This document shows positions 8,093 through 25,131 of a DNA stretch of 64,000 bases, in pieces. The DNA is from Acidobacteriota bacterium (GTDB lineage Bacteria; Acidobacteriota; Polarisedimenticolia; J045): NCBI GenBank assembly GCA_030949985.1, contig JAUZRX010000010.1, forward strand, positions 211,148 through 275,147, read 5' to 3'. The notes beneath the pieces were generated by a model. It was not told where the DNA came from and did not search any database. It saw only the letters and a list, made by a program, of their open reading frames with translations. Both the position numbers and the translations under genes were made by a program. How positions within the stretch are numbered: position 1 is the first letter of the stretch; every line of letters begins with the position of its first letter.

Positions 8093-9957
8093 CGCTTTTC
8101 CTCCAGCAGGCTCCGAGCCCGGTCCTTGATCTCCGCGACGCGGAAGGGCTGGCCCTGGATCTTCTGCAACCCCTCGATGGCCACGTTGTAGCGCGCCGTC
8201 AGCACGTCTCTGAGTTGCCCGCGATTCAGCTCGGGCAACAGGATCCGCCCCGAATACTCTCGCAGGATCGCCTCCAGCCCCCGGGGCAGAGGGTGCAGGT
8301 AACGCAAGTGCACGGAGGCCACGTTCCGACCCTCTCGACGCAGTTCCCGGGTGGCCTGGGTGATCGCACCCCAGGTCGAGCCCCAACCGACGATCAGCAG
8401 ATCGCCACCGGCCTCACCCTCCTCGAAGGTCGCCGGCGGAAGATCCTCCGCCACCGCGGCGACCTTGGCCGCCCGCGCCGCCACCATCCGCTCGTGATTC
8501 CGGGGGTCGTAGGAGACCGCCCCCTGCTCGTCCTTCTCGAGCCCCCCCACCCGGTGCTCGAGCCCCGGCGTACCCGGACGCACCCACGGCCGGGCCCCCG
8601 TCCGCGCGTCCCGCACGTAGGTCCCCCGAAAGCTCTCGGGATCGCTGTGGAAGGCGACCGGAATCGGTGGTAGATCCTCCGGCGCCGGCACACGGAAAGG
8701 CTCGGCCCCGTTGGCGATGTAGCCGTCGGAGAGCAGAATGACCGGCGTCATGTGGCGAATCGCCAACCGGGCGGCCTCGAAGACCATGTGGAAACAGTCT
8801 CCCGGAGAAGCCGCGGCAAGCACCGGCAGGGGCGACTCGCCGTGGCGGCCGTGGAGAGCGATGTCCAGGTCCGCCTGCTCGGTCTTGGTGGGCAGCCCGG
8901 TGGAAGGCCCACCCCGCTGGACGCAGATCACCAACAACGGCAATTCCATCATCACCGCCAGGCCCAGCATCTCGCCCTTGAGCGCCAGCCCCGGCCCGCT
9001 GGTGCTGGTCACCCCCAACGCCCCGGCGAAGGAAGCGCCCAGGGCCGCCCCCACGGCGGCCATCTCGTCCTCGGCCTGGAAGGTGACCACGCCGTGGGCC
9101 TTGAGGCGCCCGGCGCGGTGCAGCACGGTGGATGCCGGAGTGATGGGATAGCTGCCCAGGAAAACCTGCAAGCCGGATTGGTGCGCCACCGAGGCCAGCG
9201 CCAGGGCGATGGCCTCGTTGCCGTCCAGGTTGCGGTAGAGCCCTGCCGGCAGCGGCGCGTGGGCCACCTCGTAGACGGTCTGGAAAATGCGGGCGGTCTC
9301 GGCGTAGTTGTAGCCGGCTCGCAACACCTTCTCGTTGGCCTCCGCCAGCGATGGACTGGATGCGAACTTGCGGCGCAACCATTCCAGGGTGGGCCCGAGT
9401 GGCCGGCTGTAGAGCCAGTAGAGCATGCCCAGGGCGAAGAAGTTCTTGCAGCGATCCCGCTCCCGCACGCTCAATTCCGTCTCTGCCAGGGCCTGCCGGG
9501 TGATGCTGGTGATCCCCACGGGATAGACCCGGTAACCTTCCAGCTCGTGCCCTTCCAGAGGCGAGCTCTGGTAGCCCGCCTTGCGCAGGTTGTTTCCATC
9601 GAAGGCATCCGAGTTGACGATCAGGATGCCCCCCTTCTTGAGGCCCGAGAGATGCATCCGCAAGGCCGCCGGATTGAAGGCCACCAGCACGTCGGCTTCG
9701 TCACCGGGGGTCAGCACCGACTTGGAGGCGAACTGAAGCTGGAAGCCGGAGACACCGGGCAGGGTGCCCGCAGGGGCGCGAATCTCGGCCGGATAGTCGG
9801 GAAGGGTCGCCACATCGTTGCCCGCCAGGGCGGAGGTCTCGCTCATACGGCTGCCGGTGAGCTGGATGCCGTCGCCGGAGTCTCCGGCCAGGCGAACGAT
9901 GACCGCCTCGACCTGCTGCCGCCGCGTACCACCTTCGGAGGGGCTCGTTGAAGTCAT
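8089..9957 (-). CDS. korA: 2-oxoacid:ferredoxin oxidoreductase, fused gamma-alpha subunit
   Basis: A 622-residue subunit with the gamma domain (about 16-195, starting VIVRLAGDSGDGIQLTG) fused ahead of the alpha domain (from about 215, GNEAIALALASVAHQSG, then GSYPITPASTVLH and FQAEDEMAAVGAALGAS). This is the usual KorA layout of 2-oxoglutarate:ferredoxin oxidoreductases in reductive or anaerobic TCA metabolism. The gene pair is ordered korA-korB with a 4-nt ATGA overlap. There is no delta (polyferredoxin) subunit next door, as expected for the two-subunit Kor type. Substrate preference between 2-oxoglutarate and other 2-oxoacids cannot be settled by eye. Confidence 0.95.
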   Translation of the reverse strand: MTSTSPSEGGTRRQQVEAVIVRLAGDSGDGIQLTGSRMSETSALAGNDVATLPDYPAEIRAPAGTLPGVSGFQLQFASKSVLTPGDEADVLVAFNPAALRMHLSGLKKGGILIVNSDAFDGNNLRKAGYQSSPLEGHELEGYRVYPVGITSITRQALAETELSVRERDRCKNFFALGMLYWLYSRPLGPTLEWLRRKFASSPSLAEANEKVLRAGYNYAETARIFQTVYEVAHAPLPAGLYRNLDGNEAIALALASVAHQSGLQVFLGSYPITPASTVLHRAGRLKAHGVVTFQAEDEMAAVGAALGASFAGALGVTSTSGPGLALKGEMLGLAVMMELPLLVICVQRGGPSTGLPTKTEQADLDIALHGRHGESPLPVLAAASPGDCFHMVFEAARLAIRHMTPVILLSDGYIANGAEPFRVPAPEDLPPIPVAFHSDPESFRGTYVRDARTGARPWVRPGTPGLEHRVGGLEKDEQGAVSYDPRNHERMVAARAAKVAAVAEDLPPATFEEGEAGGDLLIVGWGSTWGAITQATRELRREGRNVASVHLRYLHPLPRGLEAILREYSGRILLPELNRGQLRDVLTARYNVAIEGLQKIQGQPFRVAEIKDRARSLLEEKR

Positions 9958-10050
9958 GGAAGATGCGCCTTCGTGGGAGCGGGCGGGGTTACCGTCCCGC
10001 CGCCGGATACGCCTAACTCGACCACCAGGTGGTTTTCGTCTTCGCTGGGC

Positions 10051-12081
10051 TCATTCTATGTCCAAACGGTTTTCGGGCAATTCCCCCACCCGCGGCAGGG
10101 GCCGTGACCAGGACCACTCCCGCAGGGTGTATTGCCGGCGCCCCAAGCGCCCCCGCACGATGATCCGGCTCGCCACGTCGAGCCCCCCGGCCCGGCGCCA
10201 GCTCTCGAAAACGAGTTCCTCGTCGGGCTCGGCGTCCGCGGCACGACCCGGCCACCAGACCCGCAGGGCCTCCGGCCGCGTGCCGCCCTCCTGCACCACG
10301 ACTTCGATCACCGACCCCTGGGCCAGTTCGACCCGCAGAAAAGGACGGGGCGCGGCGCCTGCGACCTCGCCCTCCGGCACCTCCGCGGGAAGCAGCCCGG
10401 AGACCACCGCCCCGGCCAGGACCGCCGGCTCGCGAAACGCCCATTGCTCGAGCTGGTCGAGCCCCACCGCGCCGACTTCGGACTCCTGCTGCTCACCCGT
10501 GACCAGCCGATCGCTCCCCGGGGACGAGTCGATCTCCAGCTTCCGCTCCCCCGCGCGCCAGCTCGCCCGGGCCCGCTCGGGGCCCGCCTCCACCTGCATC
10601 TCGGAGATCACGGGTCCCGCCGGCGTCATCTCCTCGACGGAGTAGCGGGCCACGTAGGCCACGGGAACCGGCCGTGCCCCGTCGCCACCCAGCGCCCGCA
10701 GGAGTTCCAGCGCCCGTTGCCGGGCACGCTCCCGCCTCTGCTCCTCCTTCACCCGGCAGGGGCGCGGCAGGTCCCGGCCGCAGTGATCGAGAGGAGCGAC
10801 GAGCCGCGGCTCGGGGAAACCCGCCAGTTCCACGGAAACAGCCGCCGGAGCGCCGGCCTCCACCGCCACCCGGGCGGCGCTGGCCAGCAGATCGGCGGCG
10901 ACCGGCTTGAGCCGGCTCGAATCCATGGGCCTCTTCCATCGGTCCGCCGGGGGCCAGCGCCAGGCGGAAGCCGTCAGCAACTCGTCGACCAGCAAGCGCT
11001 CCGGCTCCGAGCGCCGGCGGTCCGCCGCCCCGTCCAACCGTCGCCGAGCGCGCAACACGGCATCCCGACGGAATGATTGCCGGGCAGCCGAGTCCAAGGC
11101 CGCCATCAGCACTTTCCAGGCGGCCGCCCCCTGCCCGGGCCGCACCTCGGCACCGAGCAACAGGACACCGCCGCCGTCGGCCGCCGCGACCACTTCCACA
11201 GAAGCCACGGCTTCCGGGCCGAGGGCGACTCTCAGGCGCTGGGCAAGGGAACCTTCACCCTCGGCCAGGGACTCGGCGAGCAGTTCCAGGGCTGCGCCAT
11301 GGCGCTCGGCCACCCGGCGATCGAAACGCAGACCGTGAACCAGGGCCAGGGTGCCGGCGGGAGCCTCGAGGTCCTGCACCCGCAGGCGCTGGACCGTCGC
11401 CGGCACCTCCGGAAGTTCGAAGCGCAAGGACGCGAAATCCCGCTCCACCCGGGTCTCGAGTTCCGCCGCCAGGCGGGGGGCCCCGGCCGGCGGCCCGGCG
11501 AAGAGCACCGGCAGCGGCCGGAGGGAGAACTCGTCGAGCATCCGCTTCACTTCGTCGGTGGCGATCTCGGCCCACAGCCCCGGCTGGGCTTCCAGGCTCT
11601 CGGCCGCCGCGCCGGAGCCCAGCAGGGCCAGCAGGGCCATCCGCCGGGCCTGGCCGCCCGGCTCCCCACGCGCGGCCCGGGCGCGGGTCTCGAGGGTCCG
11701 GCGGGCGCTGTCCATGGCTTTCCGGGAGGGGAGCCGGGGTCTGAGCAGGGGCCGGAGCAACGCGGCCAGGCGCTGAACCCGCCCCGACGGCAGGCGGTAG
11801 CCCACCGCCACGTATCCCGGCAGGGCCAGCGTCAGGGGAGTTTCGTCTTCCCGGCCGGTGCCCTCGACCAGGGCCCGCGCCGCGAGGTAGGCCGGCGCCT
11901 GTGCAGCCCCCTCCGCGGGCCAGAGCACCACCGCCGCCATCTCTCCACCCTCCGCAGGCATGACCCGCATGGGCCCGGCGGCGCCCAGCGCGGAAAGGAT
12001 GCTTCCGACCATCAGCGCGACGGCCGACAACCACGGGCGGAAGGGAAAGAATCGGCTGGGGACGAGAGGTCGCGTACGCAT
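10051..12081 (-). CDS. exported protein resembling a degenerate M16 (insulinase-type) peptidase
   Basis: A 676-residue protein with an N-terminal export signal (Arg-rich start, then WLSAVALMVGSILSALGAAG). The centre has the M16 half-domain pattern: a gaining-strand region followed by AALELLAESLAEGEGSLAQRLR and, later, GGGVLLLGAEVRPGQGAAAWKVLMAALDSA, resembling the LLGGGFSSRLF...YAGTAPEN blocks of M16 proteins. No HxxEH zinc motif is found, so peptidase activity is unlikely if the homology is right. The C-terminal 150 residues look beta-rich (EVVVQEGGTRPEALRVWWPG), like an outer-membrane lipid or peptidoglycan-associated domain. The ATG at 12081 gives a proper signal peptide. Family assignment is tentative. 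Confidence 0.5.
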   Translation of the reverse strand: MRTRPLVPSRFFPFRPWLSAVALMVGSILSALGAAGPMRVMPAEGGEMAAVVLWPAEGAAQAPAYLAARALVEGTGREDETPLTLALPGYVAVGYRLPSGRVQRLAALLRPLLRPRLPSRKAMDSARRTLETRARAARGEPGGQARRMALLALLGSGAAAESLEAQPGLWAEIATDEVKRMLDEFSLRPLPVLFAGPPAGAPRLAAELETRVERDFASLRFELPEVPATVQRLRVQDLEAPAGTLALVHGLRFDRRVAERHGAALELLAESLAEGEGSLAQRLRVALGPEAVASVEVVAAADGGGVLLLGAEVRPGQGAAAWKVLMAALDSAARQSFRRDAVLRARRRLDGAADRRRSEPERLLVDELLTASAWRWPPADRWKRPMDSSRLKPVAADLLASAARVAVEAGAPAAVSVELAGFPEPRLVAPLDHCGRDLPRPCRVKEEQRRERARQRALELLRALGGDGARPVPVAYVARYSVEEMTPAGPVISEMQVEAGPERARASWRAGERKLEIDSSPGSDRLVTGEQQESEVGAVGLDQLEQWAFREPAVLAGAVVSGLLPAEVPEGEVAGAAPRPFLRVELAQGSVIEVVVQEGGTRPEALRVWWPGRAADAEPDEELVFESWRRAGGLDVASRIIVRGRLGRRQYTLREWSWSRPLPRVGELPENRLDIE

Positions 12082-12722: not shown

Positions 12723-13559
12723 ATGTCCACCAACAATTCGCTCTTTGGCGGTGATAGCCCCGCGACCATCTTCCACATCGGCGACCGGAGCCTGGCTCTT
12801 CCGGCCTTCTCTGTGCGCGAGATGATCGCCATGCCCCCGGTGACGCCGGTTCCCCGAACTCCCCCATGGGTCAGGGGCGCATTCAATCTCAGGGGGCGGT
12901 TGATTCCCGTGGTCGACCTGCGGGTCAAGCTCGGCATGCGCCCCCTCGAAGAGGAACTCAACGACCTGGTCCAACTTCTCGGTGAGCGCCAAAAAGATCA
13001 CCTCAACTGGCTCGAAGAATTGGAGGCATCGGTCCGGGAGGGCCGGGAATTCCGCCTGGCCACCGATCCCACCAAGTGCAAGTTCGGCCGCTGGCTTGCC
13101 GGCTTCCACACCAACAACCCGCTGCTTCAGCAACTCCTGGGCCGATTCTCCGAACCGCACCAGGGAATCCATGCGATCGCGATCGAGGTCGGCCACTTGA
13201 TCACACGCAACGACAACGAAGCTGCGCTCAAGACGATCAACAACGCACGCCATGGCCTGCTCGACGAGATGATCCGGCTCTTCGAACGAACCCGCACCAT
13301 GCTCAGGGAAACGACGAGGGAAATAGCCATCGTCCTCGAACACGACGACGTCGAGTTTGCCATCTCCATCGATACGGTCGATGGTGTCGAACACCTGGCC
13401 GCGAAGACCATCGAGGAACTGCCGAACATGCTCGGTGGATTGGACGAGGATGTTTTCGCGGGCGCCGCGCGGCGTGAGAGGGACGGCTCAGTCGTTCTGC
13501 TGCTGGACCTGGGGGCCCTGCTCCCCACCATCACCGAGAAAATGGCCCAAAGCGCCTGA
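12723..13559 (+). CDS. CheW-like coupling protein with an inserted CZB zinc-binding domain
   Basis: A 278-residue soluble protein. Residues about 14-75 form the first half of a CheW fold (ends RGAFNLRGRLIPVVDLRVKLGM). A CZB (chemoreceptor zinc-binding) domain occupies about 88-190. CheW resumes at about 200 (IAIVLEHDDVEFAISIDTVDGVEHL) and ends VLLLDLGALLP. The CZB ligand set is visible: H93, C119 in KCKFGRW, H146 and H150 in EPHQGIH. CZB domains bind zinc tightly through three His and one Cys, and some respond to zinc or to oxidants such as HOCl. The protein could therefore couple receptors to CheA in a metal- or redox-dependent way. It precedes the receptor and triple CheW genes, separated from them by PPK2. 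Confidence 0.85.
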   Translation: MSTNNSLFGGDSPATIFHIGDRSLALPAFSVREMIAMPPVTPVPRTPPWVRGAFNLRGRLIPVVDLRVKLGMRPLEEELNDLVQLLGERQKDHLNWLEELEASVREGREFRLATDPTKCKFGRWLAGFHTNNPLLQQLLGRFSEPHQGIHAIAIEVGHLITRNDNEAALKTINNARHGLLDEMIRLFERTRTMLRETTREIAIVLEHDDVEFAISIDTVDGVEHLAAKTIEELPNMLGGLDEDVFAGAARRERDGSVVLLLDLGALLPTITEKMAQSA

Positions 13560-15331: not shown

Positions 15332-17260
15332 ATGAAGACCATGGCAATGCCACCCTCTGTCGAAAGCGCACCCGAGACTGCCCCCTCCAACGCCGACCTC
15401 GAGACCAAGAGGCGTCTGGCCAAGCAGCGAGCGGCCCAACGCGCCGCCAGTCGTACAGCCGCAAAGCGACAACAGGCCGCGGAGCGGATCGCCGCGGCGG
15501 TGGAGGAGATGGCGAGCTCCGTCCCCAGCGCCAATGCGACGGCCGACGAGCTCAACGGCGCCATGGAACAAATCGCCGCCGCCGCCACCGAAGCCAGTGC
15601 CTCCGCCGAGCAGAGCGCCGCGGCCGCACGTGAACTCGCCCGCGTCGCCGAAAACAGCGCCTCGTCCACCAAGGAGAATACGGAGCAGATCCTCAAGCTG
15701 CAGGAACGCATCCGCCAGACCTCCCGTGACCTCAACGCGCTGGTCGAGAACGCCAAGGTCGCTGCCGCCAACAACCTGCAATCCGCTGAACTCATCGCCG
15801 AACTCGAAAAGCAAGCCGCCGAGATCGGCATGGTGGTCAAGACCGTCGCCGGGATCGCCGACCAAACCAACCTTCTCGCCCTGAATGCCGCCATCGAAGC
15901 CGCCCGGGCCGGGGAACACGGCCGCGGATTCGCCGTCGTTGCCGACGAAGTCCGCAACCTCGCCGAAGGCGCCGAAAAATCCGCCAGGGAAATTCGAGAG
16001 CTCGTCCAGTCGATTCAGGACGACGTTCAGAAAGTCGCCGGGGAAATCAAGACCAGCGCTGCGAAGGGCCAGGAGTTGGCCACCAAGGGCGACGAGATCA
16101 CCGCTCAGCTGACCGAGGTCGAATCGGACATGGAGAAGGTCACCCAGATCTCCCTGCAGATCAACGACCTCACGACCGAGATCCAGGCCGCGATCACCCA
16201 GTTTTCAAAGGGTACCGACCAGATCGCTTCGGCGGCGGAAGAATCGGCCGCCGCTTCCGAGGAAGCCTCCGCCGCGGTCAACGAGCAGACCAAGGCCCTG
16301 CGCGACATCGAAAGCACGACCGATGAACTGGCCCAAATGGCTGAATCGTTGCGGTCGTCCACCGACATGGACAAGAGCGCGGAGCAATTGGCCGCGGCCT
16401 CCGAGGAGTTGTCGGCCACCATCGCGGAGATGAGCGCCGCCTCTCAGCAGATCGCGACCGCCATCCAGCAAATCTCCAAGGGCGCCGAAGCCCAAAGCGC
16501 CGCAACAGAAGAATCCTCCGCCGCCATCAAGCAGATCACCAGCAACATGCAGAACATCGCCTCCAGCGTCGAAGCCGCCCTCGAATCGGTCAAGGAGCAG
16601 CGGGAGCTGATCCGTAACAACCGGAGGAGCGTGGACGAGCTGGTCGCGAATCTATCCGAGAGCGCCAAATCCGCCAAGGTCTCCGCCGAGAACATCAGTG
16701 CCCTCGAAGTCCGAGTCCGCCAGATCGACAAGATCGTGGATGCCATCACCAACGTGGCCATGCAAACCAACATGCTCGCTGTCAACGGCGCGGTGGAGGC
16801 GGCCAGGGCCGGCGAGTACGGCAAAGGATTCGCCGTTGTCGCATCCGATATCCGCTCCCTGGCCACGGACTCCGACGCCAACGCCGAAAAAATCAAAGAC
16901 CTCGTTCGCAACATCCAGGACCAGGTTCAGACCGTCTCCCGTGACGTGCTCCAGCTCGGCGCCGCCGCCGACCAGGATGTCGAAGCCGCCAAGCACGCCA
17001 TCCGGAGTCTGGAACATGTGGAAACCGACATCGGCGTGGTGTACGACGGCACCGCCGCCATTCGCGACAACACCCAAGCCGCCGCATCCGCAGTCGAGCA
17101 GGCACGGACTGGCATCGACCAGATAGCCGCCGCCGCGCAGGAGTCGTCCGCTTCAAGCAACGAGGCGGCTACTCTCGCCACACAGCAGCAGCGCAGCATG
17201 CAGGAGTTGGCGCAGGCCATCGAAGACATCTCGGCCATGGCCGACGAGCTCCAGAACTGA
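15332..17260 (+). CDS. soluble methyl-accepting chemotaxis-type receptor with two signalling (MA) domains
   Basis: A 642-residue cytoplasmic receptor made almost wholly of coiled coil, with no membrane segment or recognisable sensor domain. Two MCP signalling hairpin tips are present. The first (about 174-212) is [38 protein letters not shown], abbreviated here by its ends. The second (about 475-512) is a variant in which [15 protein letters not shown] becomes [16 protein letters not shown] and ADEVR becomes ASDIR. Each lies inside its own MA-like helical stretch (about 60-310 and 365-640). Ala/Glu-rich heptads around the tips could carry methylation sites. The N-terminal 50 residues are Lys/Arg-rich. 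The gene is followed 22 nt later by the triple CheW and cheB, so it should feed the CheA encoded here. Confidence 0.9.
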
Positions 17261-17282: not shown

Positions 17283-18959
17283 GTGGAGCCAACCGAGATC
17301 CTGCCCGACAGCGTCAACCAGTTGGTCAGTTTCACCATGGACGGCGAGGAATTTTCCTTCCCCATCCATGCTGTCCAGGAAATCGTCCGACTGCCGGATG
17401 TGACCCCGGTGCCCGGCGCTTCCACTTCCGTCGAAGGCATCATCAACCTGCGCGGAAGCATCCTCCCTCTGATCGACCTCAGGAGATCCCTGGGCCTCGC
17501 CGATACGACCTATTGCGATGATTCGAGAGTCATCGTGGTGCGTCACCAGGGCGGACAGACCGGGATGATCGTCGATCGCGTAAACGAGGTCCTCCAAGTC
17601 CCCCGGGAACACATCGCCCCCCCGCCGCCGAACCTTTCCACGCCCGGCGGCAGCGCCCTCCTCGGCCTGGCCAAGATCGAGGGCGGCAGGCGGGTGATCA
17701 TGATCCTCTCCCAGGACCAGCTTCTTCCCCCCGTTGCCGAGCAGCCGAAGGATATGAACCCTCCTTCGTCCTCCTCCCAGGTCACCGAAACCGAAACCCG
17801 AATCGAGGACGAAAGGTTGCTCGTCACGTTCAGACTGGCCGACGAGGAGTTTGCGGTCAACATTACGGATGTCCGGGAGATCGTGCGCCCCGGCAACATC
17901 GTGCGCATACCCAAGGCTCCATCTTTCGTCGTTGGCATCATGCCTCTCCGTAACGAGCTCTTGCCGGTCATCGATCTTCGCAAACGATTTGGACTCCCCC
18001 AACCATGCCACGACCCGGCAGAGCGGGAGTCCACGCCCGAATCCGACGCCCGGCGCATTGTCGTCGCCGATATCAACAACATGACCACCGGCTTGTTGAC
18101 CGACTCGGTGTCCCAGGTACTGCGCCTGCCCGAACGCGAGGTCGCGCCGGTCCCCGATATTACCCACGCCGAGCAGGCGGCTTACCTGCAGGGCGTCGGA
18201 AAACTCCGAACCGGGGACCGTCTGCTGCTCTTACTCGACCTCGCGGGCCTGCTTTCCGCCGAGGAGCAGACCAGCATCAGTCAGGCCACGGGCAATCGGC
18301 AAGCCACCGCAGGAGAAGCGCACATGACCGCAAGACAGGATACGGAGGACGTCCGGCACCTCGTCTGCTTCCGCATTGGTGATGAGGAGTTCGGTATCGG
18401 TATCATGCAAGTGCGGGAGATCGTCCGTGTCGAAACCATAACGGCGGTGCCCGGCGCTCCATCGTTCGTCTCCGGTATCGTCAATCTCCGTGGCAATATC
18501 CTGCCGGTGATCAACCTCCGCAAGAGATTCGGCCACGAAGATCTCGAACACTCCGAACAGAGCCGAATCCTGGTCGTCGAACTCGACGGAAAGACCACCG
18601 GCCTCATCGTGGACGCGGTGAGCGAAGTCCTGCGTATCCCGGAAAAAGACATCGAACCGACTCCACAAATACTCACGGAGAACGTCGCCAGTCGCTACGT
18701 CTCCGGCGTGGGCAAGCTGGACAACGGAAACCGCACCGTGCTGCTGTTGAAAACCGAGGACCTGCTGCAGCGCGCGGAAATCCAAGCCCTGCCCGGATCC
18801 GGCGAGCCTGCGGTCCCGGAGGCCTCCGACGGGCCGAATACTGAAGAAGTCACCGGGCACGGCGAGTCCCCTTCGGGCCGCAACGGGCAGGTTCAGAGCC
18901 CGGCCAAACCGCATCGCGACCTCGTGCCGGACCAGCAGGTGGAAAACCAGCCGGCCTAG
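17283..18959 (+). CDS. triple CheW-domain coupling protein
   Basis: A 558-residue protein with three consecutive CheW domains: about 10-155 (starting QLVSFTMDGEEFSFPI), 178-330 (LVTFRLADEEFAVNI) and 356-500 (LVCFRIGDEEFGIGI). Each carries the EIVR...VPGxPxxVxGIxxLRGxxLPxIDLR core. An acidic, disordered tail follows. It lacks a receiver, so it is not CheV. It probably bridges receptors and CheA in an extended array. GTG at 17283 has GGAGG eight nt upstream. The ATG at 18324, just before the third domain, has its own AGGAGAAG site and is in frame, so a third-domain-only product is possible. Gene order is receptor, triple CheW, cheB. Confidence 0.92.
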   Translation: MEPTEILPDSVNQLVSFTMDGEEFSFPIHAVQEIVRLPDVTPVPGASTSVEGIINLRGSILPLIDLRRSLGLADTTYCDDSRVIVVRHQGGQTGMIVDRVNEVLQVPREHIAPPPPNLSTPGGSALLGLAKIEGGRRVIMILSQDQLLPPVAEQPKDMNPPSSSSQVTETETRIEDERLLVTFRLADEEFAVNITDVREIVRPGNIVRIPKAPSFVVGIMPLRNELLPVIDLRKRFGLPQPCHDPAERESTPESDARRIVVADINNMTTGLLTDSVSQVLRLPEREVAPVPDITHAEQAAYLQGVGKLRTGDRLLLLLDLAGLLSAEEQTSISQATGNRQATAGEAHMTARQDTEDVRHLVCFRIGDEEFGIGIMQVREIVRVETITAVPGAPSFVSGIVNLRGNILPVINLRKRFGHEDLEHSEQSRILVVELDGKTTGLIVDAVSEVLRIPEKDIEPTPQILTENVASRYVSGVGKLDNGNRTVLLLKTEDLLQRAEIQALPGSGEPAVPEASDGPNTEEVTGHGESPSGRNGQVQSPAKPHRDLVPDQQVENQPA

Positions 18960-18991
18960 CCGGTATTCATGGGAAAGGAAATCCGCAAGTG

Positions 18992-20080
18992 ATGGGAAAG
19001 ATCCGCGTTCTGATCGCCGACGACTCCGCGCTGATGCGCCGAGAGTTGACCCGGATTCTCGAGAGCGATCCCCAAATCGAAGTTCTTGCCGCAGCGCGCA
19101 ACGGCCAGGACGCCGTTGAGAAAACCCGCAAATTGGACCCGGACGTGGTCGCCCTCGATATCAACATGCCTGTGATGGACGGGTTGACCGCTCTGCAAAA
19201 CATCATGATGGACTCTCCCCGGCCCGTCGTGATGATCAGTTCCCTGACCCAGGAAGGCGCCTTGACCTCTTACGAGGCCCTCGAACTGGGAGCTGTCGAT
19301 TTCGTCGGCAAGCCCGGCGGCACCATCTCCCGTGATATCCGTCGCTCATCTGACGAAATCATCAACAAGATCAAGGCCGCAGCCAGCGCCAACAAGAAGC
19401 GCCTCTCCCACCACCGGGTCCGCCGCCCGGCCACGGCGACCAAGCGCGCGACCCGTACCGCCGCGCGTCCCTCCGCAAACGGCAGGATCGTGGTCATCGG
19501 CCAGTCCACCGGCGGCCCGAACACCATCCTCGACATCCTGCCGCTCCTCCCTGCCGACCTGGGCGCTCCCGTGGTCATCATTCAACACATGCCCGCTTCC
19601 TTCACCCCCTCTTTCGCCGAACGCCTCGACAGGCACTGTGCCTTCCCATTCAAGCAGGCCGAGGCCCACGATGTGGTCGAGGACAATCACGGCTACCTCG
19701 CACCCGGCGATTCGCACATGCTTCTCGCCCGTCGTGGGGGCCATCGCAAGGGAGCCCTGGTGCGCCTTTCCCCGGAACCTGCCGACACACTACACAGGCC
19801 CTCGGTGGACGTCACCATGCATTCCATTCTACAGCTCTACGGGGGCCCAAACATCGTCGCGGTCCTCCTGACCGGGATGGGTGCGGACGGCGCCGATGCC
19901 ATGGCAGCCATTCGGAAGGCCGGTGGACGCACGATCGCCGAATCCGAAGAGACTTCCATCGTCTTCGGCATGCCCCGGGAAGCCATCGCACGGGGAGGAG
20001 CCGAGTTCGTCCTGCCCTCCTACGAAATCGCGGAAAAAATCGTGGCCCTTGTCGGCGCCGGTGCGAGGGTCTCGGCATGA
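18992..20080 (+). CDS. cheB: chemotaxis protein-glutamate methylesterase CheB
   Basis: Response-regulator methylesterase that removes methyl groups from receptor glutamates or deamidates glutamines. The receiver spans about 3-122 (VLIADDSALMRREL, phospho-site in ALDINMPVMDG, K in VGKPGG). A basic linker (about 132-160) leads to the CheB catalytic domain. The catalytic triad is visible as S in GQSTGGP, H in IIQHMP and D in TGMGADGA. GTG at 18989 and ATG at 18992 are adjacent starts; the ATG is used. With CheR downstream it implies adaptation by methylation. The stop overlaps the next ORF (ATGA at 20077-20080). Confidence 0.95.
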   Translation: MGKIRVLIADDSALMRRELTRILESDPQIEVLAAARNGQDAVEKTRKLDPDVVALDINMPVMDGLTALQNIMMDSPRPVVMISSLTQEGALTSYEALELGAVDFVGKPGGTISRDIRRSSDEIINKIKAAASANKKRLSHHRVRRPATATKRATRTAARPSANGRIVVIGQSTGGPNTILDILPLLPADLGAPVVIIQHMPASFTPSFAERLDRHCAFPFKQAEAHDVVEDNHGYLAPGDSHMLLARRGGHRKGALVRLSPEPADTLHRPSVDVTMHSILQLYGGPNIVAVLLTGMGADGADAMAAIRKAGGRTIAESEETSIVFGMPREAIARGGAEFVLPSYEIAEKIVALVGAGARVSA

Positions 20081-20316
20081 ACACCCAGGCCGCGTCCGCC
20101 GCCCTGCGCGTGCGCCATCGTTCCACGCCATTCGGCCCGCTGTCACCGAGCGAGCGCCCCGGATTGTCCAGCATTGGAAATCCTTCACATACGGCCCTTT
20201 CCCCCGCCGGGAAACTCCACTCGCCCGGCCACCGCCGGCAGAAAGATCTCCTCCCGGCGCGAGTAAAACTCCACGATTCCCACGCATACGCCTCCGCCAA
20301 GGGAGACGCATCATGA
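20077..20316 (+). CDS. unrecognised 79-aa ORF coupled to cheB and the HEAT gene
   Basis: It starts with ATGA overlapping the cheB stop and ends with TGA overlapping the ATG of the HEAT-repeat gene (ATGA at 20313-20316). Both junctions have the translational-coupling layout. The product is Ser/Pro/His/Arg-rich with no domain, signal peptide or membrane segment. It may be a real small protein, or a reading frame that only carries ribosomes across a 232-nt gap. No other gene fits that gap. Confidence 0.4.
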   Translation: MNTQAASAALRVRHRSTPFGPLSPSERPGLSSIGNPSHTALSPAGKLHSPGHRRQKDLLPARVKLHDSHAYASAKGDAS

Positions 20317-20984
20317 CCGAACCTACCTTTGAAGAGTTGCTCCAACAGCTTTCCGATCCGGACGAGGAAACCAGGCGTTTCGCGGCCGAGGACCTGGGCG
20401 ATCTCCATAATCCCGAGGCCATCGACCCCCTGGTCGCCGCACTCACCGACTCCGCCGTGGCCGTTCGCGAAGCCGCGGTACAGGCCCTGATCGCCATCGG
20501 CGGCGAAACCGTCGCCCGGCGAGTCGCGCCACTCCTGGATCATCCCGAGGCTCCCGTCCGCAACAGCGCGCTGGAGGTTTTCGAGAACCTTCGTGTGGAC
20601 GCCATCGCCCCGGCTGCGGACCTCTATCTCTCCTCGACCGATTCTCATGACCTGCGCAAAATCGCGGTCGATACCCTGGGCAAGATCGATCAGACGAAAG
20701 AGTCCAAGGCTTTCGCCACACTGCTGCAAGCTCTCGACGATCCTCACATCAATGTGGCAACCGCGGCCTGTGAAGCCCTCGGGCGAGTCGGGGGGGACGA
20801 CGCCGTCGAGGCCCTGACCAGCCATATCGGCCGCCACCCCTGGATGGACGGCACCATCTTCCTCGCGCTGACGACGATCGGGTCCGACAAGGCCCGCGAG
20901 GCCCTCGAACAGATCGACGAGACGACGCTCGAACCCCAGGCCGTTTTCGCCCTCCAGGAAGCCAGGAGCCTGGTGACGCCATGA
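20313..20984 (+). CDS. HEAT-repeat protein of the chemosensory operon
   Basis: A 223-residue soluble alpha-solenoid. It has about six HEAT/PBS-lyase-like repeats with the recurring pattern DxxxxVRxxAxxALxxIGxxxxxxxLxxLLxD, for example SAVAVREAAVQALIAIGGE and EAPVRNSALEVFENL. No catalytic residues are expected; such solenoids are protein-interaction scaffolds. GGGAGACGC precedes the ATG. It overlaps cheR by ATGA (20981-20984), so it is tightly bound to the adaptation genes and may act as a scaffold for receptor, CheB or CheR. That role is inferred from position only. Confidence 0.88.
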   Translation: MTEPTFEELLQQLSDPDEETRRFAAEDLGDLHNPEAIDPLVAALTDSAVAVREAAVQALIAIGGETVARRVAPLLDHPEAPVRNSALEVFENLRVDAIAPAADLYLSSTDSHDLRKIAVDTLGKIDQTKESKAFATLLQALDDPHINVATAACEALGRVGGDDAVEALTSHIGRHPWMDGTIFLALTTIGSDKAREALEQIDETTLEPQAVFALQEARSLVTP

Positions 20985-21895
20985 CCGCCACACGATCGCT
21001 GACACCGACGTCCGAAAGGGCAAGCCGCGCCATGCTTTCCGAAATCACCCAGGTTCAGCTGGACCAGATCCGGGAGCTGATCTACAAGGAAACGGGAATT
21101 CTTTACGAAACGAAGAAAGACTACGCCATGAAGGCGCGCATCGAGCGCCGCATGGAGGCCTCCGGCCATAGAACCTTCCGCCGCTATTACCGAAGCCTGC
21201 TCCTCGAAGATCCAGGCGGAGAACTGCAGAATCTGATTGAGGAGTTGACCGTCAACGAGACTTACTTTTTCCGGGACTTCCCCCAGCTCCAGGGATTCGG
21301 GGAGCGAGCTTTGCCGTTGCTTCTTGAAGAGAAAAAAAAGGTCGGTGACTCCACTCTCAAAATATGGTCAGCGGCCTGCTCCACCGGTGAGGAGCCCTAT
21401 ACGCTCTCGATCATCGCCCAGGAGATGATTGAAGACTATGAGCGCTGGGACGTCTCCATTCTCGCGACCGACATCGATCGACAGGTCTTGAGGATCGCGA
21501 AAAAAGGCGAATACGGCCGCCGGTCGATGAAGGACACCCCGCTCGTCTATCGCAAGAAATACTTCTCCAACCAGGGTACCTCATGGCAGGTTCTGCCACA
21601 CACCGCGGAACCGGTCCATTTCGACCTGGTGAACCTCATTGATCGCAGGGCCATGCGCAAACAACGCGGCTTTGATTTTATCTTTTGCCGCAATGTTCTC
21701 ATCTACTTCAATGAGCTATCCCGCAAGAAAGTCGTCAACTCGTTTTACGACGCCCTCAAACCGGGAGGTTTCCTCTTTCTTGGAGCTTCAGAATCCGTCG
21801 GCCGCATCACGGCCGCCTTTCAACTGACGAAACTCGGCGATCAAGTCTTCTACAGAAAGCCCCAGGCCGGCTCACTCCACTCAAAGAGAGACTGA
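20981..21895 (+). CDS. cheR: chemotaxis protein methyltransferase CheR
   Basis: SAM-dependent methyltransferase (304 aa) that methylates receptor glutamates. The N-terminal helical domain contains YETKKDYAMKARIERRM and the family motif ELTVNETYFFRD. The SAM-binding core is KIWSAACSTGEEPYTLSI, followed by LATDID and the FDFIFCRNVLIYF block, with LGASES near the end. Length is slightly above the usual 270-290 because of an N-terminal extension; an internal ATG at residue 18 (MLSEITQVQ) could be the true start. It overlaps the HEAT gene by 4 nt and is followed closely by the CheY-like gene. Confidence 0.96.
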   Translation: MTATRSLTPTSERASRAMLSEITQVQLDQIRELIYKETGILYETKKDYAMKARIERRMEASGHRTFRRYYRSLLLEDPGGELQNLIEELTVNETYFFRDFPQLQGFGERALPLLLEEKKKVGDSTLKIWSAACSTGEEPYTLSIIAQEMIEDYERWDVSILATDIDRQVLRIAKKGEYGRRSMKDTPLVYRKKYFSNQGTSWQVLPHTAEPVHFDLVNLIDRRAMRKQRGFDFIFCRNVLIYFNELSRKKVVNSFYDALKPGGFLFLGASESVGRITAAFQLTKLGDQVFYRKPQAGSLHSKRD

Positions 21896-21900
21896 AAACC

Positions 21901-22275
21901 ATGCCCAGGATCCTGATCGTAGACGATTCCCACATTGTTCTGAACCTTCATTCGTTCATCTTTGAAAAGGCCGGCTTCGACTGCGCCGTAGCCGAAAACG
22001 GTTTTCTCGCCCTCGAGATTCTCAACCAGGAAGATTTCGATCTCGTCGTCACGGACATCAACATGCCCCGCATGGATGGTTACGAACTGACGCGTCAGAT
22101 CCGCAAGATTCCCGGCAAGGAAACGATTCCGATCATCATCGTATCGACCGAAGAAGAGGCCGAGGACAAGATGAAAGGCGCCGAGGCGGGGGCCAACGTC
22201 TATATCACCAAGCCCGCCGAACCCGAAGCGCTGATCGAGAACTCCAAAATGCTGCTTGGCGTGACGGCGAGCTGA
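21901..22275 (+). CDS. CheY-like single-domain response regulator
   Basis: A 124-residue stand-alone receiver. It has the acidic pair in LIVDDSH, phospho-acceptor D in LVVTDINMPRMDG (about residue 53), the conserved Ser/Thr in IIVSTEEE and K in ITKPAE. It starts 5 nt after cheR and ends 48 nt before cheA, and is the obvious phospho-output or phosphate sink of this CheA. The genome segment has no flagellar genes, so the target could be pili, another regulator or a motor encoded elsewhere. Confidence 0.92.
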   Translation: MPRILIVDDSHIVLNLHSFIFEKAGFDCAVAENGFLALEILNQEDFDLVVTDINMPRMDGYELTRQIRKIPGKETIPIIIVSTEEEAEDKMKGAEAGANVYITKPAEPEALIENSKMLLGVTAS

Positions 22276-22323: not shown

Positions 22324-25131
22324 ATGACAGACGATCGATTCGAGTTGGACGAGGAAATTGTCGTCGAGTTCATCGCCGAATCTCTCGAGCACCTCGACGG
22401 CATAGATCAAAAGTTGATGGAATACGAGAAAGATCCGGAAAACAGCGAACTTTTGGACGGCATCTTTCGTGCGATCCATTCGATCAAGGGCAGTTCAGGC
22501 TTCCTCGACCTGTCTGATATCAACAGCCTCAGCCATCGCCTGGAAACCCTGCTCGATCAGCTCCGTAAGGGGGAAAGGGCGGTTTCGACCGCCATCATGG
22601 ACGTCCTCTTCCAGGGTTGCGACATACTCCGGCAACTGGTAAGCGACGCCAAGGAAGGGCTGGCCAACCCCGGTCAGAGCGGTTCTTCCACGGACGATGA
22701 CCAGCTCTCCGCGATTCACGAAGCCCTATCGCATCTTCTTGGGCCGGACCAGGCCCCTTCGACCGAGGCATCCAGCATGAGCTCCAGCGAAGCAAGCGGC
22801 GAAACGCCCGAAAATACCAACCTCCCCGGAGGCACAGAGGAAACCCGGAGCGTAGAGGCCGCCCAGAGCGCAGAGGACCCCGGGACCGAAGAGGCCGCCC
22901 AGAGCGCGGAGGACGCCGGGACCGAAGAGGCCGCCCAGGGCGAACCCGGCGGTTACAATATCACACCGGAGATTCTGCAGGAGTTCAGGATCGAAGCCGA
23001 GGAGCACCTCGATTCCTGTGAAAAAGGGCTCGTTCGACTTTCCGAAGTCCCGGACGACCGGGAGGCGGTAAACTCGCTTTTCCGAGACATGCATTCGATC
23101 AAGGGTACCGCCGCCTACCTCGGGCTGGACACGATCAGTCACCTGGCTCATGCCTCGGAAAGCCTGCTCGAAGTGCTTCGGCGGCAGGAATCTGCGATGC
23201 GGATCGAGGAAGACGAACTCGACCTGCTTTTCGAAGCGCTTGATCTTCTCCGGAAAATGGTCGCTGACCCCGCCGTACCCAACGAGAAAGCCAAGGATGT
23301 CGCCGAGCGCATCTCTCGCAGAATCGCCACTACGAAGGCGGACGCCGCCCGGCAGGAAAACGGCGCCCCGACATCTTCCCAGGTTCCCGAAAGCGGGCCC
23401 ATGGCCACCTTTGCCAAGGCCGTCGAACAGCACCGGGATAACCTCAAAGAATGCCTGCCCCGACTGACGGACGAGGCGAAAAGAAAAAGCACGCTTGAAA
23501 TCATGGAGCGGGCCGCCAGATCGCTGAAAAACAGCGCGCGCTACATGGATTTCCAGCAACTCGAAGGCGCAGCCGGAAACCTGGAGGATCAAATCGCCGC
23601 GATTCGCAGCGGGAAAGTTCCTTTCGACAACACGGTTTCCCAACAACTGGCCGACCGGGTCGCCGATCTCGAGAAAAGATTGGCAGATATCCTGGCGGGC
23701 AAGCCGGAGGAGCCCAGTGAGGAGCCCAGTGCGGTAGGCAGCAACCACAGTGGATCCAACACAGGCGGCGCGAAAGAAGAAGCCGGCAAGGCTTCGGCGA
23801 AACAGACGAAGCCGAGCAGCCCAAGGGTAACGGAGAGCGCTCCGAAAACCATGCGCGTCAACCAGGAACTGCTCGACACCTTCATGAACCTGGTCGGTGA
23901 GCTGATCGTGGCCCGCAACGCCTTCGGCCACATCGAGCGGCGACTCGAACTCGGCGACGGGGAAAGGGGCGACGCGCTCAAAGACCTCCGTGCGGCGTCT
24001 CTGGCCGTGGCCCGTATCTCCGAGGAGATGCAACGCACGGTGATGGAGATGCGCATGGTGCCGATCCGCACCGTGTTCCAGAAGTTCCCACGAATGATCC
24101 GGGATTTGAGCAAGAAGAGCGGCAAACGGGCCCAGATCATTCTGCAAGGCGAGGAAACCGAAATCGACAAGGGCATCGCCGAGGAACTCGGTGACCCTCT
24201 CGTTCACATCATCCGCAACAGCATCGACCACGGCATGGAGCCTCCCGAGGAACGGCTGCGCGCCGGCAAACCGGAAGTCGGCACGGTGATTTTGCGGGCC
24301 GCTCATGAAGGCAACTTCATCATCATCGAAATCGTCGACGACGGGCGCGGGATCAACACGGAGGCCGTGCTGGAAAAAGCGATCGAGAAGGGCCTCGTCA
24401 GCCGCGAACAGGCTCAGAACCTGAGCCACGAGGATATCTGCGGCTTTATTTTCAAGCCGGGCTTCTCGACCGCCAAGAACATCACCGACATCTCCGGGCG
24501 CGGTGTTGGCATGGACGTGGTCTTGACCAACCTCAAAAAGCTCAAAGGCAACGTGCATGTCAGCTCCGAGCAGGGCCAAGGCACTATCGTCCGGCTGGAG
24601 GTTCCGCTGACCCTCGCCCTGGTGGACGCACTGCTCGTGGAAGTCGACGGGCAAACGTTCGCCATGCCGTTGGACGCGGTCGCTGAAACCGTCAAGGTAC
24701 GGGTCGACGCGGTCAAATCGCTGATGAAGAAAAAGGCCATCACCCTTCGCGAAGAGGTCGTCAGTGTGGCCGACCTGGCGGAACTTCTCGGGATCCAGCG
24801 GCGGCACGACCTGGAGCAGGAAGAGTTGACCCTGCTGATCCTCAAGCTGGGCGGCAACCGGCTGGGCGTGATCGTGGATCGTATCCAGCGCAAAGAAGAG
24901 ATCGTGGTCAAACCCCTGGCGGACTACCTCACCGCGATTCCCGGGCTGGCCGGCGCATCCATCCTGGGCGACGGGCGGTCGATCCTGATCCTCGAACCCG
25001 GGGAGATGATGACCCTTGCCCGGACCAGCGACGACAACGGCAACGGCACCGGCAAAGACACCCCCGCCAAGGTTCCGGCGACGGAAATGCGTGAACCCGC
25101 CGTCAGCCCGGAAGCCGCGCCGGCCTGCTGA
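22324..25131 (+). CDS. cheA: chemotaxis histidine kinase CheA with two active Hpt domains
   Basis: A 935-residue hybrid-length CheA. Hpt1 has phospho-site H52 (AIHSIKGSSGF) and Hpt2 has H257 (DMHSIKGTAAY). A third Hpt-like bundle near 345-445 has AARSLKNSARY with R399 where the His should be. The dimerisation domain begins near 510 (MNLVGELIVARN). HATPase_c has HIIRNSIDHG near 630, then VDDGRGI and the GRGVGMDVV box. The C-terminal CheW/P5 domain spans about 770-905. The linker between Hpt1 and Hpt2 is acidic and repetitive. It phosphorylates the CheY-like protein and CheB under control of the two-tip receptor through the CheW proteins. Confidence 0.96.
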   Translation: MTDDRFELDEEIVVEFIAESLEHLDGIDQKLMEYEKDPENSELLDGIFRAIHSIKGSSGFLDLSDINSLSHRLETLLDQLRKGERAVSTAIMDVLFQGCDILRQLVSDAKEGLANPGQSGSSTDDDQLSAIHEALSHLLGPDQAPSTEASSMSSSEASGETPENTNLPGGTEETRSVEAAQSAEDPGTEEAAQSAEDAGTEEAAQGEPGGYNITPEILQEFRIEAEEHLDSCEKGLVRLSEVPDDREAVNSLFRDMHSIKGTAAYLGLDTISHLAHASESLLEVLRRQESAMRIEEDELDLLFEALDLLRKMVADPAVPNEKAKDVAERISRRIATTKADAARQENGAPTSSQVPESGPMATFAKAVEQHRDNLKECLPRLTDEAKRKSTLEIMERAARSLKNSARYMDFQQLEGAAGNLEDQIAAIRSGKVPFDNTVSQQLADRVADLEKRLADILAGKPEEPSEEPSAVGSNHSGSNTGGAKEEAGKASAKQTKPSSPRVTESAPKTMRVNQELLDTFMNLVGELIVARNAFGHIERRLELGDGERGDALKDLRAASLAVARISEEMQRTVMEMRMVPIRTVFQKFPRMIRDLSKKSGKRAQIILQGEETEIDKGIAEELGDPLVHIIRNSIDHGMEPPEERLRAGKPEVGTVILRAAHEGNFIIIEIVDDGRGINTEAVLEKAIEKGLVSREQAQNLSHEDICGFIFKPGFSTAKNITDISGRGVGMDVVLTNLKKLKGNVHVSSEQGQGTIVRLEVPLTLALVDALLVEVDGQTFAMPLDAVAETVKVRVDAVKSLMKKKAITLREEVVSVADLAELLGIQRRHDLEQEELTLLILKLGGNRLGVIVDRIQRKEEIVVKPLADYLTAIPGLAGASILGDGRSILILEPGEMMTLARTSDDNGNGTGKDTPAKVPATEMREPAVSPEAAPAC
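22855..22938 (+). repeat. 36-bp tandem repeat inside cheA linker
   Basis: Two full 36-bp units (22855-22890 and 22891-22926) that differ at two positions, plus a 12-bp partial third unit. They encode EAAQSAEDxGTE repeats in the Hpt1-Hpt2 linker. The in-frame length permits expansion or contraction without loss of frame. Confidence 0.85.

Follow-up and report, generated by a model that had tools for sequence, protein, structure and literature searches.

In Vibrio cholerae, DosM (VC1403, cluster I, F9 class) was described in 2016 as the receptor that scaffolds a two-layer cytoplasmic array (Briegel et al. 2016, as cited in PMC7534058). The citing paper reports that this two-baseplate array requires DosM as an essential component and that, by cryotomography, DosM appears as an extended rod across both layers. 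The gap between the baseplates of the array is 35 nm (PMC3964821). F9 systems have two signatures, DosM and a triple CheW protein (CheW3), and were found in ~2% of 2781 species; sensor domains are absent from 98% of the DosM homologues (PMC9321776).

A second group of described receptors also carries two subunits in one chain. An engineered single-chain Tsr~Tsr signals (Mowery et al. 2015, PMC4692393), and the same paper cites Greenswag et al. for tandem soluble Tar constructs that are mostly intramolecular dimers and notes natural soluble single-chain receptors with reference to Wuichet and Zhulin 2010. Like DosM, these constructs have two receptor subunits per chain, and they work as one dimer. 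Unlike DosM, they are artificial and their subunits are identical, and Tsr~Tsr also contains membrane and HAMP regions and depends on long linkers.

A double-tip receptor in an F9 gene cluster

In the window, a whole stretch of 64,000 nucleotides, the receptor is encoded by an open reading frame with an ATG start codon that spans exactly 15332–17260 on the plus strand. The receptor and its parts are as follows.

15332–17260, plus strand: dosM, soluble MCP of 642 aa with two signaling hairpins (two Pfam MCPsignal stretches; 26 orthologues of like layout)
15389–15496, plus strand: basic N-terminal helix or tail of DosM, ~residues 20–55 (net charge; invariant R37 and R41)
15860–15931, plus strand: tip 1, residues 177–200, canonical (L377, L380 and A382 in Tsr numbering, 27/27)
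16358–16366, plus strand: mid-chain junction with the STD motif, residues 343–345 (AlphaFold2 break; heptad phase; deletion in L035)
16760–16831, plus strand: tip 2, residues 477–500, diverged (M377, V380 and G382 in Tsr numbering, 27/27)

The earlier note, made from the letters of the DNA, had placed two MCP tips in one chain, at about residues 174–212 and 475–512, and we found them at residues 177–200 and 477–500. The domain search that it had suggested returned two MCPsignal stretches (whole-protein E 6.7e-65, Pfam), and the two domains scored 124.9 and 100.7 bits when the whole genome was searched, both above the Pfam cut-off of 34.6, so that the single MA domain it had named as a possible objection was not what Pfam found. 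Its description of a soluble protein with no sensor also held: Pfam detected no sensor or any other domain above the cut-off over the whole chain, and a hydropathy scan revealed no membrane segment, the highest 19-residue Kyte–Doolittle mean being 1.05. In this single soluble polypeptide, two complete MCP hairpins are connected at their bases.

The genes that surround dosM are the following.

12723–13559, plus strand: CheW with an inserted CZB domain of the zinc-binding, HOCl-sensing type (Pfam CheW split into two parts by a CZB match of E 5.1e-10)
17283–18959, plus strand: cheW3, three CheW domains in one protein, an F9 signature (Pfam CheW, 3 stretches, E 1.8e-111)
18989–20080, plus strand: cheB (Pfam Response_reg and CheB_methylest)
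20313–20984, plus strand: HEAT-repeat protein (Pfam HEAT_2, E 5.4e-35; same place in L029–L033)
20981–21895, plus strand: cheR (Pfam CheR and CheR_N)
21901–22275, plus strand: cheY (Pfam Response_reg)
22324–25131, plus strand: cheA with Hpt stretches and dimerization, ATPase and CheW domains (Pfam Hpt x3, H-kinase_dim, HATPase_c and CheW)

The triple CheW gene directly follows dosM, and the cluster is complete for cheA, cheY, cheB and cheR, its order being dosM–cheW3–cheB–HEAT–cheR–cheY–cheA, all in the same direction. An identical order is annotated on plasmids of Methylosinus trichosporium, Methylobacterium currus, Sphaerotilus sulfidivorans, Eleftheria terrae and Azospirillum oryzae (L029–L033), which include the HEAT gene, as here. 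Their DosM proteins are of similar length (642 aa in four) and ~40–45% identical to the present one, with the same 300-residue spacing and tip signatures; in several of these plasmid clusters, cheA is followed by ParA or by an additional response regulator. The clusters of Agrobacterium vitis, Novosphingobium and Rhizobium have no HEAT gene, and their response regulator is retained downstream of cheA. Furthermore, a metagenome-assembled contig (L005) carries dosM–cheW3–cheB, with a DosM 60% identical to ours.

These comparisons, all drawn from sequence, lead us to assign the receptor to DosM, the double-signaling-domain receptor of an F9-class chemosensory system, with a probability of about 0.9; the F9 placement rests on gene content and order. 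In favor of this identity are the two MCPsignal domains above the cut-off, the adjoining triple CheW, the gene order identical to that of L029–L033 and close to that of L034–L036, the tip spacing, which is 300 aa in all but one of the 27 orthologues and holds across several phyla, the methylation-type motifs found in the receptor arms and the presence of just two other MCP genes in the genome; no finding spoke against it. Like VC1403 of V. cholerae, the protein has two MCP signaling domains, is soluble, has no sensor and has a triple-CheW gene as its neighbor within an F9 operon (PMC7534058, PMC9321776); this likeness follows the published description of VC1403, and the sequences compared were intact DosM proteins from six gammaproteobacterial genomes that belong to one family. 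The present cluster differs from that of V. cholerae in belonging to another organism, outside Vibrio, and in having a CheW-CZB gene near dosM. The present DosM is thus a further member of a known family and not a new type of protein.

Several neighbors deserve mention in their own right. The HEAT-repeat protein between cheB and cheR is a conserved, uncharacterized F9 accessory, kept in alpha- and betaproteobacterial F9 clusters and absent from those of Rhizobiaceae and Novosphingobium. The product of cheA (22324–25131, plus strand) has three Pfam Hpt stretches. The CheW-CZB gene, with a 3His/1Cys zinc site of the HOCl type, lies ~1.8 kb upstream of dosM and outside its operon; this architecture is uncommon (1.4% of CZB proteins), and both it and the triple CheW were already known (PMC10653840; PMC8262984). 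Between cheW-CZB and dosM, a gene from 13619 to ~14689 on the minus strand encodes a PPK2-like polyphosphate kinase, a call made by eye from the motifs GRDAAGKGG and FDRSWYNRA.

Conserved features of the DosM orthologues

We compared 27 intact DosM sequences, the present one included, from alpha-, beta- and gammaproteobacteria, from its own phylum and from one metagenome-assembled genome labeled Bacteroidetes. The spacing from tip to tip was 300 residues in all except one of them, which had 299. Similarly, tip 1 always had L377, L380 and A382, whereas tip 2 always had M377, V380 and G382 (Tsr numbering), while E385 and G390 were present in both tips, as was R388 save in one tip 1. The invariance of these two residue sets in 27/27 sequences indicates that the tips are two fixed, differing types. 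The substitutions in tip 2 to which the earlier note had drawn attention are a family signature, and their invariance across the orthologues rules out the reading of tip 2 as a decaying copy.

Two other segments are also conserved. The mid-chain motif common to the orthologues is in most cases NSTD or STD, with a Gly in some. The N-terminal segment before the hairpin is positively charged in every one of the 27 (net charge +4 to +13), and R37 and R41 are invariant in a 9-sequence alignment. In Myxococcus xanthus, the soluble receptor FrzCD has a positively charged tail that tethers it to the nucleoid (PMC5716589). FrzCD resembles DosM in being soluble with a basic N-terminal tail but has one signaling tip against the two of DosM, and it is for the tail of FrzCD that DNA binding was shown. 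By analogy, the basic tail of DosM might anchor F9 arrays to DNA, which is only a lead.

Among the candidate relatives, L007 and L008 turned out to be ordinary one-tip receptors, and L006 was set aside because it showed no second tip. A gammaproteobacterial homologue (L064, G495:C12) matches the second half of DosM alone and has an in-frame TAA; it is possibly a pseudogene or a truncated receptor.

Spanning rod or folded-back dimer

Could the two tips reach opposite baseplates, or does the chain fold back and bring both to the same one? The structure prediction of the hairpins that had been suggested earlier was run with AlphaFold2 on a lone DosM chain with two aligned sequences, and such predictions favor compact folds. 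It returned four helices (residues 20–192, 194–342, 346–492 and 494–641; mean pLDDT 89.6), and the middle of the chain folded back as a hairpin with a break at residues 343–345. The hydrophobic heptad phase was constant over residues 48–336 and over residues 350–636, with a jump of ~107 degrees, equal to one residue, between the halves, and the DosM of L035 has a one-residue deletion at the junction. The helix break, the phase jump and the L035 deletion together indicate that the middle of DosM is a discontinuity and not a single continuous coiled-coil helix. When segment 196–492 (C1 + N2) was folded alone, the break was retained, and the predicted structure resembled antiparallel hairpins, among them SMC arms and a Thermotoga receptor that aligned along all 297 columns (TMq 0.51); as a sign of folding back, this modeled hairpin is only suggestive.

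In the spanning rod (dumbbell) model, two DosM chains would pair as a homodimer into two four-helix bundles joined base to base, with tip 1 and tip 2 in opposite CheA/CheW layers, and we give this arrangement an even chance. It is the arrangement reported for V. cholerae DosM from cryotomography and fitting (PMC7534058). The rigid conservation of the tip-to-tip distance across the orthologues is consistent with it, as is the way in which the N- and C-arms finish at mid-level, at ~residue 43 and residue 642, respectively. On the other hand, the rise of a four-helix bundle is ~0.148 nm per residue, and a straight span of 300 residues computes to ~44 nm. This predicted length exceeds the 35 nm measured in V. 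cholerae (PMC3964821). Furthermore, the helix break and the non-conserved register at the junction would create a hinge where a rod needs stiffness, AlphaFold2 folds the middle segment into a hairpin, and the conserved basic N-terminal helix would probably enter the second bundle.

In the folded-back dimer, whose chances we put somewhat below even, the chain would turn at residues 343–345, and N1, C1, N2 and C2 would make up one intramolecular four-helix bundle of ~22 nm with its tips next to each other at a single baseplate. Two opposed layers of such bundles, overlapping by ~9 nm, would yield a sandwich of 35 nm. In the sandwich formed by a Tar fragment, whose opposed receptors touch base to base, the distance between baseplates is 31 nm, which is shorter than twice the length of the fragment, taken by us to be ~39 nm; overlap of opposed receptors is therefore one way in which such a gap can arise. 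The length argument (44 versus 35 nm), the four predicted helices with their break, the best matches of the isolated C1 + N2 segment to antiparallel hairpins, the heptad phase that is steady in each half and shifted by one residue between them, and the L035 deletion exactly at the junction all speak for the folded-back dimer. By arithmetic on the heptad phase, the core layers of the hairpins are equidistant from their respective tips, and the engineered Tsr and tandem Tar chains point in the same direction (PMC4692393).

Charge patterns were also compared between helices. In the level-matched register, N1–C2 ranked 1st, N2–C1 ranked 3rd and N1–C1 ranked 1st among 126 circular shifts, and the complementarity of N1–C2 and N2–C1, pairs that never touch in the rod, was at least equal to that within the hairpins. 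A within-minus-cross charge statistic, for which rods predict zero or negative values, was positive in every offset window over 14 sequence groups, with a z that varied with the window from 0.3 to 4.0, and it was picked after a first scan. The charge argument is weakened because the halves are still alike (level-matched identity of 24–26% versus a background of 13–14%), and common ancestry can itself give cross-complementarity; we thus regard the charge test as suggestive only. Core-volume covariation did not favor the folded-back dimer, as its signal lay within hairpin 2 alone and did not discriminate between the arrangements. The reported cryotomography of V. cholerae (PMC7534058), with its extended spanning rod, also stands against folding back, and so does the bias toward compact folds that AlphaFold2 has when given one chain and two aligned sequences.

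We consider the spanning rod slightly likelier than the folded-back single-chain dimer; the mid-chain break, the register shift, the AlphaFold2 hairpin and the lengths of 44 and 35 nm fit the latter equally well or somewhat better. Could DosM then be a natural single-chain receptor dimer? In ordinary receptor dimers, the two subunits are stated to hold different positions, one on the axis of the trimer and the other toward CheA/CheW (PMC4692393), and two fixed tip types per chain would suit that division. DosM would in this case be no rod, and its tips would take the inner-trimer and outer CheW/CheA-ring sites, a reading that we hold tentatively and would sooner bet against. The weakest explanation, an assembly or annotation artefact in which a receptor segment was duplicated or two genes were fused, has no finding in its favor and virtually no probability left: the halves (residues 46–342 and 346–642) show identities of only 34% (protein) and 52% (DNA), which indicates an old duplication and no assembly error, and both tips, the layout and the spacing are common to 26 orthologues from other genomes, which together rule out the assembly duplication that the earlier note had allowed for.

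Signal input and implications for the F9 family

By analogy with the V. cholerae orthologue, DosM would serve as the central scaffold receptor in a flat cytoplasmic array that has two CheA/CheW baseplates. The earlier proposal of a two-layer array is reasonable from family membership, as judged by neighborhood and sequence, but it is not new, being published for V. cholerae DosM. Because DosM is without a sensor domain, its input must come from partners, presumably through other array members. Candidates for this input are the CheW-CZB protein (12723–13559) and a protoglobin MCP encoded elsewhere on the contig, and DosM may be tuned through methylation by CheR and CheB.

A whole-genome profile search found three MCP genes, dosM included. 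The gene of the protoglobin-HAMP MCP (L045) adjoins its own cheA and cheB, and the third MCP (L046) is of the HAMP type with an N-terminal hydrophobic stretch, its gene lying beside a cheA. FliG is present in the genome. On the same contig but outside the window, L045:8807–13983 is a second chemosensory cluster with the soluble protoglobin-HAMP-MCP and cheB, in which cheA appears split into an Hpt part (8807–9985) and a kinase part (9928–11115) that overlap in different frames.

The DosM described here extends a rare system to another lineage, F9 with DosM being present in 5 of 396 sampled genomes of its phylum, its own genome counted. The fixed 300-residue spacing, the fixed tip asymmetry and the conserved mid-chain break with its heptad shift (~residues 343–346) go further than what was known of the family. 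The spanning rod and the single-chain dimer, both published views of such proteins, predict opposites, and the spacing, the break and the asymmetry make the choice between rod and fold-back testable. If the chain does fold back, the inner and outer receptor subunits would be separately mutable in DosM, which is impossible in ordinary homodimers.
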